This document shows positions 24,175 to 39,294 of a DNA stretch of 39,294 bases, one piece after another (position 1 is the stretch's first letter; each line of letters starts with the position of its first letter). Position numbers and translations under genes: made by a program. The stretch comes from a virus: positions 1-39,294 of IMG/VR virus record IMGVR_UViG_3300042309_001715; one strand, given 5' to 3'. The notes under the pieces are model-generated. The model searched no databases. It was given only the letters and a program-made list of their open reading frames with translations, and had not been told where the DNA came from.

Positions 24175-24205
24175 AGCGGTCATTTGCAGGGGTTTAGGGG
24201 GGTGG

Positions 24206-24265
24206 AAAAAAAGATGAAAAAAGGTGAAACTTTTCCCTTTACAAAGACAAGCGCTTGGCTTAACT
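24206..24265 (+). promoter_or_regulatory. Promoter P2: A-rich tract plus palindromic spacer, predicts near-leaderless mRNA
   Basis: A 29-nt A-rich tract (24206-24234), identical to 26059-26087, precedes TTTACA (24238-24243). The 16-nt spacer is followed by a weak -10 (TTAACT, 24260-24265). The 18-bp palindrome AAGACAAGCGCTTGGCTT (24244-24261, one mismatched pair) fills the spacer. The ATG at 24276 is only 10 nt after the -10. Confidence 0.6.
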
Positions 24266-24275
24266 TGGCGGGGTA

Positions 24276-24521
24276 ATGAAAACACAGAACACACCGACCG
24301 CCACCATCCAAACCGCCGCCCGTTACGTCAGCCGCAGCATTTGCGACCACAACTGTTTCTTTGAGTTGTTTGTTATCAAACGCACGGCCAAGACCGCGAC
24401 CATCCGCTACAACGGCGAAATCCGCCGCACCAAGATTAAGGTCGATTGCAGCGGCTTCGAATACCTCCGGCCCGATGATTACAGCATGGCACCGATTTTC
24501 CGCGCAGAGTGCGCGGCTTAA
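24276..24521 (+). CDS. Small hypothetical protein, cargo island, 81 aa
   Basis: ATG 24276 opens with MKTQNTPTATIQTAARYVSR, then a beta-rich part (CFFELFVIKRTAKTATIRYNG). The start region ATGAAAACACAGAAC matches that of the gene at 27030. It lies immediately behind promoter P2, so it is probably expressed on its own. The family is unknown. Small proteins of this style flank DUF932 genes in mobile elements. Confidence 0.6.
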   Translation: MKTQNTPTATIQTAARYVSRSICDHNCFFELFVIKRTAKTATIRYNGEIRRTKIKVDCSGFEYLRPDDYSMAPIFRAECAA

Positions 24522-26028: not shown

Positions 26029-26058
26029 ATACCCTGTTTTCAAGGGGTTACAGGGTCA

Positions 26059-26117
26059 AAAAAAAGATGAAAAAAGGTGAAACTTTTTCTTGCATACGCC
26101 AGCGGCTGGCGTATTAT
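26059..26117 (+). promoter_or_regulatory. Promoter P3: perfect 21-nt palindrome as spacer/operator, near-leaderless
   Basis: An A-rich tract identical to that of P2 (29 nt) is followed by TTGCAT (26090-26095), a 16-nt spacer and TATTAT (26112-26117). A perfect palindrome with 10-bp arms around a central G covers 26094-26114, overlapping both boxes. The ATG at 26127 lies 9 nt past the -10, so the transcript would start about 3 nt before it. Confidence 0.7.
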
Positions 26118-26126
26118 GGGGGAGTA

Positions 26127-26363
26127 ATGAAAACACAAACAGCAAAAACTATCAGCCTCGATTCGGGGTTGGAAATCACGACCTACCGCAACAGCAAAAC
26201 GGGCGACACCCTATGTGTTCACCACAACGATTGCGGCGCGTATTACGGCGAACTGGTGCAAGCCAGCGATCCCCGCAAAACCAAACAGCGCGTAACAACT
26301 CAACAGGTCAACGAGCTAATCTCCTACTGGCATTATGAATTCGGGGGTTGCTCCATCGACTGA
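26127..26363 (+). CDS. Small hypothetical protein, 78 aa
   Basis: ATG 26127 chosen because it directly follows promoter P3; an upstream in-frame ATG at 26067 would lie inside the A-rich tract. N-terminus MKTQTAKTISLDSGLEITTY, then 'KTGDTLCVHHNDCGAYYGELVQA', beta-rich. No family known. Its N-terminus resembles those of the genes behind P2 and P4, suggesting a common expression context. Confidence 0.6.
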   Translation: MKTQTAKTISLDSGLEITTYRNSKTGDTLCVHHNDCGAYYGELVQASDPRKTKQRVTTQQVNELISYWHYEFGGCSID

Positions 26364-26706: not shown

Positions 26707-26724
26707 ACCCCCCCTAAAAATAAA

Positions 26725-26764
26725 TGAAAATAAATCTTGCATACCCCAGCGGCTGGCGTATAGT
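26725..26764 (+). promoter_or_regulatory. Promoter P4: P3-type operator with one base change, near-leaderless
   Basis: TTGCAT (26737-26742), 16-nt spacer, TATAGT (26759-26764). The 21-nt palindrome at 26741-26761 is the P3 operator with one base altered. The upstream 14-mer TGAAAATAAATCTT is identical to that at 14349-14362 (early promoter). The ATG at 26774 lies 9 nt past the -10. Confidence 0.7.
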
Positions 26765-26773
26765 TAGGGCGTA

Positions 26774-27010
26774 ATGAAAACCAAGCACACAGCAAAAGTC
26801 ATCGGCAAAACCGGATGCGGCCAGCCGATCAGAATATATCGCGGGCATCTTATCGTTAAGCGCGACAACGCTTACTTGTGCGATGCCGAGATCACGGGCA
26901 TCGAATACCACGTATATGACAAAGAGCAGTCGCCGCAATATCACTCGGCCATTGAAATTGTCTCCACGCTTGCGGAAGCAAAGTGGTTTGTCGATTGCCG
27001 CAACCGCTAA
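26774..27010 (+). CDS. Small hypothetical protein, 78 aa
   Basis: ATG 26774 follows P4. MKTKHTAKVIGKTGCGQPIR, then beta strands (IYRGHLIVKRDNAYLCDAEI) and a helical end (IEIVSTLAEAKWFVDCRNR). This size and pattern recur in mobile-element proteins of unknown function. The shared operator with P3 implies co-regulation with the gene at 26127. Confidence 0.6.
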   Translation: MKTKHTAKVIGKTGCGQPIRIYRGHLIVKRDNAYLCDAEITGIEYHVYDKEQSPQYHSAIEIVSTLAEAKWFVDCRNR

Positions 27011-31167: not shown

Positions 31168-31590
31168 ATGAAGCGCGACTTTAACTGCGGCACTGGCTCC
31201 GGTGGATTTGAGCCGGGGAACACTTGCGCTGGAGGCGGTGGTGGTGGCGACTCATCGGGCGGTTCGTCCGGTGGCGGGAGTGATGAAGGTGGAGGTGGCG
31301 GAAATAGCGCGCGCGGCGAGCGATTGCGCGACCGCATTGAAGGGACTGACGCCGAGGTCAAAGCTGAACTTGCCAAAGGCAGACGAGATATAAGCCGAAT
31401 CGAAAAAAAGATCGAAGCGGTCAAGGGCAAGATCAAGGAGATTGATCAGCGCGAGCAAAATGTCCTCAAGAGTCTTCAGCAGAAAGCAGATGCGGCTACG
31501 GCGCGCAGGCAAGATTTAGACTTAAAACTTAAAGCGGTAAATGAGCGAATTGCCGCGAATAAAGCAAAACTCGCCAAGTATAAAAAATGA
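31168..31590 (+). CDS. Gly-rich N-terminus plus coiled coil, head-assembly protein, 140 aa
   Basis: Residues 1-25 contain 'CGTGSGGFEPGNTCAGGGGGG', a motif type (GGFxPGNTCAxG) that I recall at the N-termini of phage head proteins. Residues 25-50 are almost pure Gly/Ser. From 52 to 138 it is a long charged coiled coil (ISRIEKKIEAVKGKIKEIDQ). Placed between portal and protease/scaffold, with ATGA coupling to the protease, it may be a scaffold or minor head protein. The DNA is locally more AT-rich toward the 3' end. Confidence 0.6.
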   Translation: MKRDFNCGTGSGGFEPGNTCAGGGGGGDSSGGSSGGGSDEGGGGGNSARGERLRDRIEGTDAEVKAELAKGRRDISRIEKKIEAVKGKIKEIDQREQNVLKSLQQKADAATARRQDLDLKLKAVNERIAANKAKLAKYKK

Positions 31591-34058: not shown

Positions 34059-34081
34059 TTGACAGTCTGCCACGGGGCAGA
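34059..34081 (+). promoter_or_regulatory. TTGACA element and start-codon hairpin
   Basis: TTGACA (34059-34064) lies 16 nt before the ATG at 34081. TCTGCC-ACGG-GGCAGA (34066-34081) is a perfect 6-bp hairpin whose last base is the A of the start codon, so it could hinder translation of the first cassette gene. Confidence 0.45.
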
Positions 34082-35778
34082 TGCAAATTCAGTCGAAGGT
34101 CGCCGTGTGCCTTATATGCGGCAACGAGGAAGGGATCATAGGACGGGCGCTGGATAGCGCCTTCACCGTCAGCGACACCGTTATTGTCGTTCGTGCTATC
34201 GGGGGCCAGAAGCCCGACAAATCGCTTCAGATTGCCCGTGAGCGCGGTTGCATTGTCGGGGAATACCACAACAGCCCTGCAACCGCATCGTGGCCCTTCG
34301 TGGATGATTTTGCCGCCGCTCGCAACGAAGCCTTCCGGTTGGCCGCAATCACCCCTGCCGAGTGGTTCATGTGGATGGATTGCGACGATACCCTGCCCGA
34401 AGGGATGGGTGAGACGATCAAGCAGGCCTGCGCCGATACGAAGGAGGATTGGATTTTGGCGACCTACGAGTTGCCGCAGCACTGCAAGTCTGTCCTGCGC
34501 GAGCGTCTGTTCCGGCGCGGCACGGCGGCATGGTTCAACGGCGTCCACGAAAAGTGCATCCCGGTCACAGACGACAAGGACAAAGACACCCTGCAAGTGC
34601 GGGTCCGCAAAGACATTTGCATCGTCCACCAACCGTTCGATGCCAAGACGGGATCGCAGGAACGCAACCTCAACATCCTTTTGTGGCGCTATCAAGAAAT
34701 GCAGCATTTAGCCTTCTATCTGCATTACGAATACTTCCTGCTCGGCAAGCGCGAAGAGGCGGTCAAATACGGCCTGCAAGCCCTGCGCCTCGACAACCTT
34801 GATGGCGTGTATCGTTACGAAGTGCTGCTCAACCTCGCCATGCTGGCCGAGAAAAACGAGCACGGGCAAGACCTGTTGCAGCGCGCAATCAAGCTCTGCG
34901 ACTCCCGGCGCGAGGCATATCACTTGCTGGCGCTCTTGCAGATGGACGCGGGGCAGACTGCCGAGGCGGTCAAGACGGCAGAGCATTGCCTGTCTATTGC
35001 CGAGCCGAAAATCTACGAATGGACGCACCGCCCGGACATCTACGGCTGGAAAGGATTTGCCACAACGGCATGGGCGCACCGCGCCAATGGCGACGAGGCA
35101 AGGGCCAAGCGGGTCGAGGACTTGATGCTGGAAAACGGCGGCAGGCCGCGCATCAGCCTCCTGCACGCCACGCGAGGCCGCTGGTCAAAGGCGATCAACG
35201 CCATGTCGCTTTGGGTGGGCCGCGCGTCTAACCCGGAGGCGGTCGAGCATTGGTTTGCCATAGACGAGGACGATGCTGAATCCCGCGAAAAGTTAAGCCG
35301 CTTTCGTCACGTGATTAGCGCAGAAGGCGGCTACTCGGTCGGGGCATGGAACACTGTCGCCAAGGCCGCAACAGGGGATGTGATTATTCAGATTGCCGAC
35401 GATTTCGAGCCGCCGCTCGGATGGGACAAGCTGATCCTCGACGCACTCGGCGGCGATTTGTTCGCGCCTAAAGTCTTGCGCGTTTCGGACGGGCTGCGCG
35501 AGGACGGGCTGATCACGATGGCGATTGTGACCCGCCGCTGGTATGAGGCGCACGGCCTCTTTGATGAGGCGTTCCGCAACGTCTATTCCGACAACGATCT
35601 GACCGCCCGCGCGCAAAAAGCCGGGGCAATCATCAACGCCAAGCATATCGTCTTCACGCACGTTCACCCGCTCGGCGGTAATGTGCCGATGGATGCGACC
35701 TACGAGCGCGGCAACGACCCCGCCGAATACGAAAGAGCCAAGGCAGTCTATGCAAAACGACATCCCGAATTGGTTTGA
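34081..35778 (+). CDS. Two-domain glycosyltransferase with TPR-like linker, 565 aa
   Basis: Residues 5-180 are a GT2-type (GT-A fold) domain: VAVCLICGNEEGIIGRALDS, ARNEAFRLA, and the DxD-like MDCDDTLPEG (D100-D103). Residues 185-340 form TPR-like helical repeats (YFLLGKREEAVKYGLQALRL, LLALLQMDAGQTAEAVKTA). Residues about 350-565 form a second GT2-like domain (ISLLHATRGR, IIQIADDFEPP). It probably adds sugars to a virion or host surface polymer from nucleotide sugars. No membrane segment is visible, so it acts in the cytoplasm, for example on capsid protein. It overlaps the methyltransferase by 29 nt. Confidence 0.8.
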   Translation: MQIQSKVAVCLICGNEEGIIGRALDSAFTVSDTVIVVRAIGGQKPDKSLQIARERGCIVGEYHNSPATASWPFVDDFAAARNEAFRLAAITPAEWFMWMDCDDTLPEGMGETIKQACADTKEDWILATYELPQHCKSVLRERLFRRGTAAWFNGVHEKCIPVTDDKDKDTLQVRVRKDICIVHQPFDAKTGSQERNLNILLWRYQEMQHLAFYLHYEYFLLGKREEAVKYGLQALRLDNLDGVYRYEVLLNLAMLAEKNEHGQDLLQRAIKLCDSRREAYHLLALLQMDAGQTAEAVKTAEHCLSIAEPKIYEWTHRPDIYGWKGFATTAWAHRANGDEARAKRVEDLMLENGGRPRISLLHATRGRWSKAINAMSLWVGRASNPEAVEHWFAIDEDDAESREKLSRFRHVISAEGGYSVGAWNTVAKAATGDVIIQIADDFEPPLGWDKLILDALGGDLFAPKVLRVSDGLREDGLITMAIVTRRWYEAHGLFDEAFRNVYSDNDLTARAQKAGAIINAKHIVFTHVHPLGGNVPMDATYERGNDPAEYERAKAVYAKRHPELV

Positions 35779-36292
35779 TTACCCACCGCTTTACGCGCAA
35801 CTGGCCGAGCAGATACCAGATGGCGCTACCTTCGTGGAGGTCGGGTCATGGGTAGGTCATTCGATCAGCTACTTTGCCAAAGAAGTAAAGCGACACGGAA
35901 AGCAAAATGTTCGCATCGTGGCGGTCGATACATTCAAGGGCAGCGTGAACGAGGAGACGCAAACCAGCATTGCAAAACAGGCTGGCGGCAGCTTTCGGCA
36001 TTTATTCGATGCCACTTTGGTCGAGGCTGGCGTGTTTCAGATGGTTACAGTGCTTCAATGCGATAGCGTTGCCGCCGCCAAAAAGTTCAAAGACGGCAGC
36101 GTGTGGGCGGTCTTTATCGACGGCGAGCATACGACCGAGGCCGTAACGCGCGACATTGCCGCATGGAAACCAAAGCTCATGCCGCAGGGAACCTTGTGCG
36201 GCCACGACATCCCGCACCCGGAAGTTGCCGCTGCCGTTGCAGCCCTTGGCCCCTACGAAACATTTGGCCGTTGCTGGATTGCTTGCCAATGA
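35750..36292 (+). CDS. SAM-dependent methyltransferase, class I, 180 aa
   Basis: Residues 26-40 (ATFVEVGSWVGHSIS) are the glycine motif for S-adenosylmethionine, IVAVDTF (near 58-64) supplies the acidic end of strand 2, and WAVFIDGEHTTEAVTRDI is motif-IV-like, with metal-binding Asp/His. The pattern fits the Methyltransf_24 family, often in glycan or capsule loci. Lying between two glycosyltransferases (29-nt and ATGA overlaps), it likely methylates a sugar chain made by them. Confidence 0.8.
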   Translation: MQNDIPNWFDYPPLYAQLAEQIPDGATFVEVGSWVGHSISYFAKEVKRHGKQNVRIVAVDTFKGSVNEETQTSIAKQAGGSFRHLFDATLVEAGVFQMVTVLQCDSVAAAKKFKDGSVWAVFIDGEHTTEAVTRDIAAWKPKLMPQGTLCGHDIPHPEVAAAVAALGPYETFGRCWIACQ

Positions 36293-36882
36293 AACGCGCC
36301 CCGACACCTGAACTGTCCGTCCTTATCCCGACCATCACCGAGCGTGAGCAGGAAGCCAATGCCCTGTTCCGTTCGCTGGAAGCCCGCGTGAAGGGCCGCA
36401 ACGTCGAACTCCTAATGATGCGGGAAAACCTCTTGTGCGGCATCGGGGAGGCCCGCAACAAGCTCCTGCGCGCGGCAGGGGGCAAGTATATCACTTTCCT
36501 CGATGACGATGACGCGCTGTGCGAAGGCTACTTTGAACTCGTCCTCGCTAACATCGCGCACGACAAGGACGTTATCACGTTTGATCAGTGGGCTTCGGTC
36601 GATGGCGAGACGGGGCGCATCAATTGCCGCCTCGGCCATGAGGTCGAACCCTTCCGCCCCGGAGGCGTGACCAAGCGCCCACCGTGGTTTTGGTGCGTCT
36701 GGCGGCGGGAACTGGCCTGCGCCTACGCGGTCCCGCAAGTGAGGCGCAATGAGGATGTGCTATGGCTGCGCCACCTGTGGGCCGAAGCCGAAACCGAAGC
36801 GCACATTCCGCAAATCCTGCATCGCTACAATTACGACAGCGCGAAGACCACCCTTCAGAAGCCCTTGACAGAGGGCGGATAG
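36289..36882 (+). CDS. GT2-family glycosyltransferase, 197 aa
   Basis: ATGA overlap with the methyltransferase. ELSVLIPTITEREQEANALF (8-27) is the start of a GT-A fold, GIGEARNKLLRAAGGKYI is the ARN helix, and TFLDDDDALCEGYF (69-82) holds the DxD metal site. A late 'RRNEDVLWLRHLW' matches the catalytic-base region (E/D in a RxEDxxW-like motif). It would transfer a second sugar in the cassette. The 3' end carries TTGACA 13 nt before the next start. Confidence 0.8.
   Translation: MKRAPTPELSVLIPTITEREQEANALFRSLEARVKGRNVELLMMRENLLCGIGEARNKLLRAAGGKYITFLDDDDALCEGYFELVLANIAHDKDVITFDQWASVDGETGRINCRLGHEVEPFRPGGVTKRPPWFWCVWRRELACAYAVPQVRRNEDVLWLRHLWAEAETEAHIPQILHRYNYDSAKTTLQKPLTEGG
36865..36870 (+). 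promoter_or_regulatory. TTGACA start-proximal element
   Basis: TTGACA, inside the last codons of the glycosyltransferase gene, lies 13 nt before the ATG at 36884, with GAGGG in between. Confidence 0.4.
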
Positions 36883-38141: not shown

Positions 38142-38585
38142 ATGACTACGGACACGGAAAAAGGCGGCGAAGTATTCGTCACAACCTCCACGCGCCTCGC
38201 CACGGCGCTTCTTTCTTTGGGCCAAACCCTTCAGCGCCCGCCCTGCACGCGCCAAGTTCGCCGCGATGGCAGCACAGTGGTGACGTTTCTTTTTGAACCC
38301 GGCAACTGCGGGAAACTGGCTTTGCAGTGGTTCAAAATTGAGGAGCAAGACCCCGGCACCGATACGCCCGCCGATTTACAAAACCGCATCACTTGGCTGC
38401 GCGAGTTGGCCGAAGAACCCGATCCGGTCAAGACGGCCTACATCAATGCCGCATGGCGCGACATCGCCTTGATGATCGTCAAAGCCACGCCCCGCATGGT
38501 CGCTATTCACGGCGCGGGGATGATGGGCTTTGTTCGTGAAGACGCTTCCAAAGAAGAAATCCGACAAATCCAAAGACAACTATGA
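38142..38585 (+). CDS. Hypothetical tail-region protein, 147 aa
   Basis: ATG 38142 after an A/C-rich leader. Residues 1-60 are beta-rich with a Cys pair (QRPPCTRQVRRDGSTVVTFL, NCGKLALQW). The C-terminal half is helical (NRITWLRELAEE, INAAWRDIALMIVKATP). No family recognised. It lies between the tube gene and the chaperone pair, to which it is coupled by ATGA; a minor tail or tail-assembly role is inferred. Confidence 0.6.
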   Translation: MTTDTEKGGEVFVTTSTRLATALLSLGQTLQRPPCTRQVRRDGSTVVTFLFEPGNCGKLALQWFKIEEQDPGTDTPADLQNRITWLRELAEEPDPVKTAYINAAWRDIALMIVKATPRMVAIHGAGMMGFVREDASKEEIRQIQRQL

Positions 38586-39064
38586 ACGACGACATCCTCA
38601 CCGACGAAGAAATCATCACACGCGAAGCCGCGCTCATGCGCTCTACGGCCCCGGCAGGGCGCAAGCTGGGCGAGTTGACCATCCGCCCGATGACCAGCGA
38701 GACGCTGACTTACCTCTGGCACACGAAAAACTTCTTCATGAGCGGCATGATGGGCGGGCCGCAGGCGACCAACGCCAACCCCGTGTGGTCAACCGCCGAG
38801 TTTGTTTATATCCACGCGGGCGACATGGAGGAAGTGGCCGAGGTCATCTGGGACAATGCTGCTTTCAAAGCGCGCGTGCGCGATTTCCTGCGCGGCCCGC
38901 TCAATGATCCCAAGATGCTTAACGAGGCGCTGCCGATCATCGAAGACATGGTGCGCGAATACTTTGCCGCGCAAAACGAATCTGCCGCGTCGAAGCACGC
39001 TCAACCCGCTGCGCCGGGAAAAAAGCCAGCCCGTGTTGGCAAGCGGCCTACGTTGCACTCGTAG
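38582..39064 (+). CDS. Tail assembly chaperone, short (G-like) product, 160 aa
   Basis: ATGA overlap with the preceding gene. The helical acidic protein (TDEEIITREAALMRSTAPAG, ETLTYLWHTKNFFMSGMMGG) includes 'DPKMLNEALPIIEDMVREYF' near residue 120 and ends with a basic tail. In lambda the G product, with GT made by -1 frameshift, chaperones the tape-measure protein. A slippery site lies near its 3' end at 39019. The tape-measure gene should follow beyond the window. Confidence 0.7.
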   Translation: MNDDILTDEEIITREAALMRSTAPAGRKLGELTIRPMTSETLTYLWHTKNFFMSGMMGGPQATNANPVWSTAEFVYIHAGDMEEVAEVIWDNAAFKARVRDFLRGPLNDPKMLNEALPIIEDMVREYFAAQNESAASKHAQPAAPGKKPARVGKRPTLHS

Positions 39065-39273
39065 CGCGTCACACGGGCTGGTCTTACGACTATATCCATC
39101 GCCGCCTGCCCGTTGCCTTCGGTCTGCAAATCATCCTTCTGCACGACTTGCGCGAGGGACGCCCGATGCAGTGGTCGGTGCCGATGAAAGGCGAAGCCAA
39201 GCAAACGGTGGACATCTTTTCCCAAGTGCAAGAGACGCTTGCCAAGACCCGTGAAGATTACAGCGCACGTTGA
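38582..39273 (+). CDS. Tail assembly chaperone, frameshifted (GT-like) product, about 230 aa
   Basis: A -1 slip at 39019-39025 lets translation continue past the stop at 39062-39064 into an open frame ending at TGA 39271-39273. Residues 1-148 are shared. The added 82 residues begin ASPCWQAAYVALVARHTGWS and include YDYIHRRLPVAFGLQIILLHD, which resembles the second chaperone domain (GWS...LP...). That downstream region has no ATG or Shine-Dalgarno site of its own, which supports frameshifting. The GT form is expected to bridge the tape measure and the tube protein. Confidence 0.7.
39019..39025 (+). other. -1 frameshift slippery site A_AAA_AAG
   Basis: In the zero frame the codons read GGA AAA AAG, giving A_AAA_AAG, a classic efficient -1 slippery heptamer in bacteria. 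The stem GCCAG/TTGGC with 6-nt loop (39025-39040) follows directly. The shift joins the chaperone to the open frame ending at 39273. Confidence 0.7.
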
Positions 39274-39294
39274 TACCTCAGACCTCCGCAGCCG

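Follow-up and report, generated by a model that had tools for sequence, protein, structure and literature searches.

A gene near the end of the window, the 39,294-nt viral sequence analysed here at its full length (IMG/VR record IMGVR_UViG_3300042309_001715), very probably undergoes programmed –1 ribosomal frameshifting, which would make a G/GT-type pair of tail-assembly chaperones. In-frame slippery heptamers precede an open –1 frame that is under coding constraint and lacks an ATG, GTG or TTG start of its own; a conserved hairpin follows at a fixed distance, and a tape-measure gene lies downstream in relatives. From these features we infer slippage, the heptamer in use, stimulation by the hairpin and the chaperone role. 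The kind of mechanism is well known, and the family of uncultured phages concerned is absent from the reference sets searched.

The proposed frameshift locus

The coding elements of the locus are as follows (window coordinates).

38582–39064, plus strand: zero-frame gene (open reading frame of 160 aa), a putative G-like tail-assembly chaperone, the role being assigned from the layout
39062–39064, plus strand: zero-frame stop codon TAG, read from the sequence and falling within the hairpin
39025–39273, plus strand: T-like –1 frame extension of 82 codons plus the stop codon TGA (39271–39273), aligned in relatives and under coding constraint

As the preliminary description of this DNA had proposed, A_AAA_AAG at 39019–39025 lies in the zero frame of the 38582–39064 open reading frame, and a –1 slip leads into an 82-codon open frame without a start of its own. 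The product of the slip reads KK-ASPCWQA... and runs on to the TGA; GWSYDYIHRRLP is found in this extension. The –1 frame opens at 38923; the first ATG, GTG or TTG in it is the TTG at 39148, within the T domain. Another in-frame A_AAA_AAG occurs at 31404–31410 (open reading frame 31168–31590), with a –1 extension of just 11 codons. Only 21 nt follow the T stop before the record ends, and the genes beyond are therefore not part of it.

Related viral contigs

The comparison set consists of 23 related viral contigs, the window included. G-protein scans of viral contigs account for 21 of them, namely the window, 19 further contigs and L148, with peptide patterns placed in the first half of G, outside the junction; a DNA pattern of the junction added L057 and L067. 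Junction conservation is therefore not built in for the contigs found through G, but it is built in for the latter two. L011 and L012, at least one of which belongs to the query alignment of the G scan, were first obtained via T peptide patterns that include ASPCWQA. The 23 contigs represent 17 distinct junction rows and 20 distinct GT proteins, and the window G is 39–94% identical to that of 15 relatives.

Pattern hits among viral sequences numbered 25, 21 belonging to the G/T family and four (L046, L063, L068 and L070) judged to be due to chance. Among genome contigs, the G peptide pattern matched 25 stretches, none of them a relative, and the junction pattern gave 75 matches. The eight of the latter that had long open frames were inspected by eye and none was G- or T-like; the junction matches in genome contigs were taken as fortuitous.

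Coding constraint and start codons of the –1 frame

All 23 contigs carry an open –1 extension, 77–85 codons long. Over a stretch of 32 codons 3' of the hairpin, compared in 91 pairs among 14 representatives, pN/pS in the –1 frame is 0.39 with no stops; the other two frames give values of 1.01 and 1.73, with 12 and seven stops, respectively. The retention of the frame in every contig and its low pN/pS bear out the earlier proposal that a tail-assembly gene here has a G/GT-like –1 layout, one that ATG-based gene calling would miss.

An independent start for T had been named in the preliminary description as an observation that would speak against frameshifting. Between the upstream stop and 54 nt past the heptamer start, ATG, GTG and TTG are absent from the –1 frame of 19 of the 23 contigs; the remaining four have a TTG 234 nt upstream (L022, L023) or an ATG 156 nt upstream (L032, L033), deep in G. 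A separate ATG, GTG or TTG start for T was rejected, as none lies at a fitting place in any of the 23 contigs.

Alternatively, T might be translated on its own as a separate gene, from a start of its own, or a sequencing error or gene decay might account for the break. Rare starts such as ATA do sit in the –1 frame of most contigs (CTG, ATA, ATT or ATC up to the site in 21/23), the commonest being an ATA 57–60 nt upstream of the site in 15 contigs; none occurs at one place shared by all. Likewise, a one-base error could produce such a layout in a single contig. However, the layout is identical in all 23 contigs, and the relatives refute the reading as an error, while the lack of a fitting ATG, GTG or TTG and the constraint on the –1 frame argue against a separate or decayed gene. 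We regard these explanations as scarcely credible.

Slippery heptamers

Two overlapping heptamers mark the site.

39016–39022, plus strand: slippery heptamer G_GGA_AAA, lambda-like, in frame in 23/23 contigs; conserved core of the proposed signal
39019–39025, plus strand: overlapping slippery heptamer A_AAA_AAG, in frame in 6/23 contigs

The run in the window reads GGGAAAAAAG; thus an in-frame G_GGA_AAA, overlooked in the preliminary description, overlaps A_AAA_AAG. Every contig has exactly one in-frame GGGAAAA. Both heptamers are present in the window and in L015–L019, whereas the other 17 contigs lack A_AAA_AAG and keep G_GGA_AAA. A_AAA_AAG had been taken as the essential heptamer, the loss of which in homologues would have told against the frameshift. 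That heptamer is indeed absent from most of the family, which does not support an essential role for it, but the frameshift reading survives on G_GGA_AAA.

The six carriers of A_AAA_AAG form one branch of the protein tree (support 84/86, below the level that the tool marks with a star). Elsewhere in the genes that carry the site, GGA accounts for 33 of 214 glycine codons and AAA for 31 of 174 lysine codons, counts that are non-independent because the contigs are related. AAAAAAG alone is not rare on the window strand (eight copies in 39 kb, versus none on the opposite strand), so the evidential weight lies in conservation. The simplest account is that the signal of the family consists of G_GGA_AAA and the stem described below, and that A_AAA_AAG is an addition in one branch.

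One could suppose instead that the frameshift is real but A_AAA_AAG works alone, the overlap with G_GGA_AAA being due to chance and the structure helping little. This heptamer is known to be shift-prone in E. coli (parts of PMC5009743 and PMC3711429), and all six members of the window's branch retain it. Yet it is missing from the 17 contigs that have G_GGA_AAA only, and the core of the stem lies 3 nt from A_AAA_AAG versus 6 nt from G_GGA_AAA, which makes this supposition unlikely. In another scenario, RNA polymerase adds or drops an A in the A run, and GT is made from mRNA of a different length. The window, with six As (39019–39024), would suit such transcriptional slippage, but in the 17 contigs the run is just four As long, more than seven are cited for the mechanism (in part of PMC3711429), and the RNA hairpin at a fixed distance downstream would be left unexplained; we consider it very improbable.

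For ribosomal slippage, the peptide from a slip on either heptamer is identical, PGKKASPCW (read by hand), so mass spectrometry of the junction can show the fusion but not the heptamer used.

A conserved stem-loop downstream of the heptamers

The predicted structure comprises the following elements.

39023–39028, plus strand: 6-nt spacer between G_GGA_AAA and the stem core; CCA at 39026–39028 can lengthen the stem base
39026–39081, plus strand: stem-loop with an 11-bp stem (39026–39036 with 39071–39081)
39029–39034, plus strand: 5' arm core GCCCGT, in 22/23 contigs; L148 has GCCCGA, with one mismatch
39073–39078, plus strand: 3' arm core ACGGGC, past the zero-frame stop, in 23/23 contigs
39048–39052 with 39060–39064, plus strand: one of the inner helices of the stem-loop in the RNA fold, the others being GGC/GUC and GCG/CGC

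The 60 nt from 39026 fold with –33.1 kcal/mol (z-score –4.46, none of 200 shuffles as low). In all 23 contigs the stem core starts 6 nt after G_GGA_AAA, within the usual heptamer-to-structure spacer of 5–9 nt (given in part of PMC7618472), and alignments of 22 and 23 rows are gap-free between the heptamer and the 3' arm. When 60 nt were taken from 3 nt after G_GGA_AAA, the 16 distinct sequences all folded with –25.3 to –36.0 kcal/mol (z-scores –2.63 to –8.08, at most 3/200 shuffles as low). In a fold scan along the whole gene in five contigs, the stretch just 3' of the heptamer was the most stable of 209–216 scan windows in four; L027 is the exception, with its frameshift site not being the most stable stretch.

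The preliminary description had drawn a hairpin at 39025–39040, closer to the heptamer than usual, and had considered that a stimulator may be absent. Although its 4-bp GCCA/TGGC pairing can be drawn, a far larger fold is predicted, and the conserved stem 6 nt after G_GGA_AAA argues against an absent stimulator. Both impressions arose because A_AAA_AAG and the 4-bp hairpin were taken: the stem core is only 3 nt from that heptamer and the extended stem base abuts it, and hence the hairpin looked too close.

Conservation of the 3' arm codons is a stronger sign of the stem than covariation. The codons ACG and GGC, past the zero-frame stop in every contig, are each identical in 91/91 pairs of the 14 representatives, with no synonymous change, against a background of 29 codons with a mean identity of 0.38 and a maximum of 0.68. 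Covariation, partial at the two pairs above the core and with few events and mixed measures, is suggestive. Standard pairs fill 89.7% of 204 pair cells (31–37% with the arms slid), and the covariation score is 0.156 versus 0.092 in shuffles (0/500 as high) and 0.010–0.107 when slid. Double-sided pair changes do not exceed shuffles (371/500 as high) and neither do further pair types (380/500); one slid version has four pairs changed on both sides versus three in the true stem, and the RNAalifold covariation term of +0.11 gives no support. The pair just above the core is C-G in seven, G-C in six, G-U in one and unpaired in three of 17 rows, the second pair above it is unpaired in 8/17 distinct rows, and each of the two has at least five pair-state changes on the tree topology. 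A search of Rfam with 38500–39294 gave no match at E 1.

The hairpin could also be real and act elsewhere, for instance in mRNA processing or in translating the gene that follows, its nearness to the heptamer being incidental. Its function is predicted only, and the zero-frame stop of the window falls within it. Across the 23 contigs, however, the distance from hairpin to G_GGA_AAA is constant, whereas the interval from the heptamer start to the zero-frame stop varies (37, 43 or 46 nt). We therefore think a different function improbable and favour a stem that would stimulate frameshifting.

Protein families, predicted folds and gene neighbourhood

Neither G nor T has a convincing match in Pfam, PHROGs, PDB or INPHARED, so we infer the chaperone role from position and layout. 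Profile searches gave no significant match of G or T to the named chaperone families of Pfam and PHROGs. Weak matches were to phrog_11996, which has no description (9/19 T members, best E 0.0021), to Pfam GlfT2_domain3 (6/19 G members, best E 0.0085) and to DUF2767 (1/19 T members, E 0.0045). At E 1, PDB sequences gave no match to G or T, and tblastn against INPHARED phages gave none for G or T of the window or for the G of L148. The structure models are weak for G (pLDDT 64.6) and poor for T (pLDDT 59.2). A fold search with the low-confidence G model found no PDB match at E 0.001; one chain had a Z of at least 2 against this model (ZIP4, Z 3.0), and its best BFVD match was the uncharacterized A0A6J5S158 (E 0.029, probability 1.00).

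Upstream in the window are a lambda-type portal and a major head protein. The gene order in relatives is G, T, an open reading frame of ~300 aa and the tape measure, the latter assigned by PHROG (phrog_9483) in 3/3 relatives tested (L002, 1.3e–15; L005, 1e–14; L148, 1.2e–7). The intervening open reading frames (5658–6575 in L002, 3676–4557 in L148) are alike by eye, and the one in L002 has no family match.

Between its head and tail genes (34081–36882), the window also holds open reading frames for family-2 glycosyltransferases (34081–35778 and 36103–36882) and for a Methyltransf_24 protein (35681–36292). Repeats at 24200–24283, 26053–26134 and 26717–26781 comprise an A-rich 35-mer in two copies (AAAAAAGATGAAAAAAGGTGAAACTTTT type) and three stretches ending in GTAATGAAAAC; in two of these stretches there is the palindrome ATACGCCAGCGGCTGGCGTAT or a close copy of it. 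The repeats are possibly phage promoters or operators.

Comparison with known frameshift sites

The locus resembles lambda G/GT in having a short zero-frame protein with a –1 extension, a lambda-type heptamer (G_GGA_AAG in lambda) and a tape measure downstream. However, INPHARED includes lambda and yet yielded no tblastn match to window G or T; lambda T overlaps H directly, whereas the window's relatives have the ~300-aa open reading frame between GT and the tape measure; and the 60 nt after the lambda heptamer fold no better than shuffled sequence (z +0.92, +0.81 and –0.97 at three offsets). P2 E/E+E' likewise has an annotated –1 frameshift just ahead of the tape measure but differs in its heptamer, T_TTT_TTG, and shows no notable structure (z –0.11, +0.58 and +0.90). 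In HK97 the heptamer pattern gave no site, so this phage provides no fold yardstick.

Besides its hairpin, the bacterial dnaX frameshift has an upstream Shine-Dalgarno-like stimulator, and it differs from the present case in gene and in purpose. The likeness lies in a poly-A/G heptamer with a downstream hairpin stimulator (part of PMC3711429). The CCA/TGG extension of the stem base in the window may be compared with HIV-1 gag-pol, in which the lower stem is built from the spacer and must open (part of PMC7618472); HIV-1 is an animal virus with unrelated sequence, and the analogy is mechanistic only.

Genes preceding weakly similar tape measures were inspected in phages 1N2-2, S-LBS1 and phiAP1, where candidate slippery sites are present. 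In Synechococcus phage S-LBS1 (L174 3895–3936), an in-frame A_AAA_AAC stands at the end of gene A18, whose annotation is ABC-transporter ATPase component; a stable 13-bp hairpin (–30.2 kcal/mol over 70 nt) lies 5 nt on, and the –1 extension is long and reaches the tape-measure gene. A18 is possibly an unannotated chaperone frameshift, and given its hairpin, the window's family is probably not alone in having a hairpin at such a site. In Idiomarinaceae phage 1N2-2 (L173 3520–3526), the hypothetical ORF20 ahead of the tape measure has an in-frame A_AAA_AAG and an unannotated –1 extension of 83 codons. The titles and opening parts of abstracts searched describe no stimulatory hairpin at a tail-chaperone site, a statement that concerns these texts and makes no claim of absence from print.

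It seems to us an evenly balanced question whether the family is an unrecognised tail-chaperone lineage with no sequence relatives among the named phages searched, in which a dedicated stem-loop stimulator stands at a fixed distance from G_GGA_AAA and a further, overlapping heptamer in one branch gives an identical fusion protein.

Proposed mechanism and implications

In the mechanism that we propose, most ribosomes would complete the 160-aa G protein, and a fraction, delayed by the strong mRNA hairpin, would slip back one base on G_GGA_AAA and, in the window's lineage, possibly also on the overlapping A_AAA_AAG. The slipped ribosomes would read 82 more codons and produce GT, of 230 aa. For two HK97-like chaperone genes, measured frameshift efficiencies of 6% and 7% are given in part of PMC3711429, a rough guide to the level that might be expected here. 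By analogy with lambda, for which the roles of the G and GT proteins are taken from part of PMC5009743, the tape-measure protein would be coated by G and GT, with the T part bringing in tail-tube subunits.

The family would add a G/GT-type pair of the sort that gene callers would break up or overlook; its tail-chaperone site has a conserved RNA hairpin, in contrast to the lambda and P2 sites, which showed none when folded in the same way. With its second heptamer, one branch would allow a single slippery site to be compared in nature with two overlapping ones, the product being unchanged. If the reading as an unrecognised lineage is true, these phages would form a natural series for testing how the chaperone ratio depends on structure and on tandem slippery sites.
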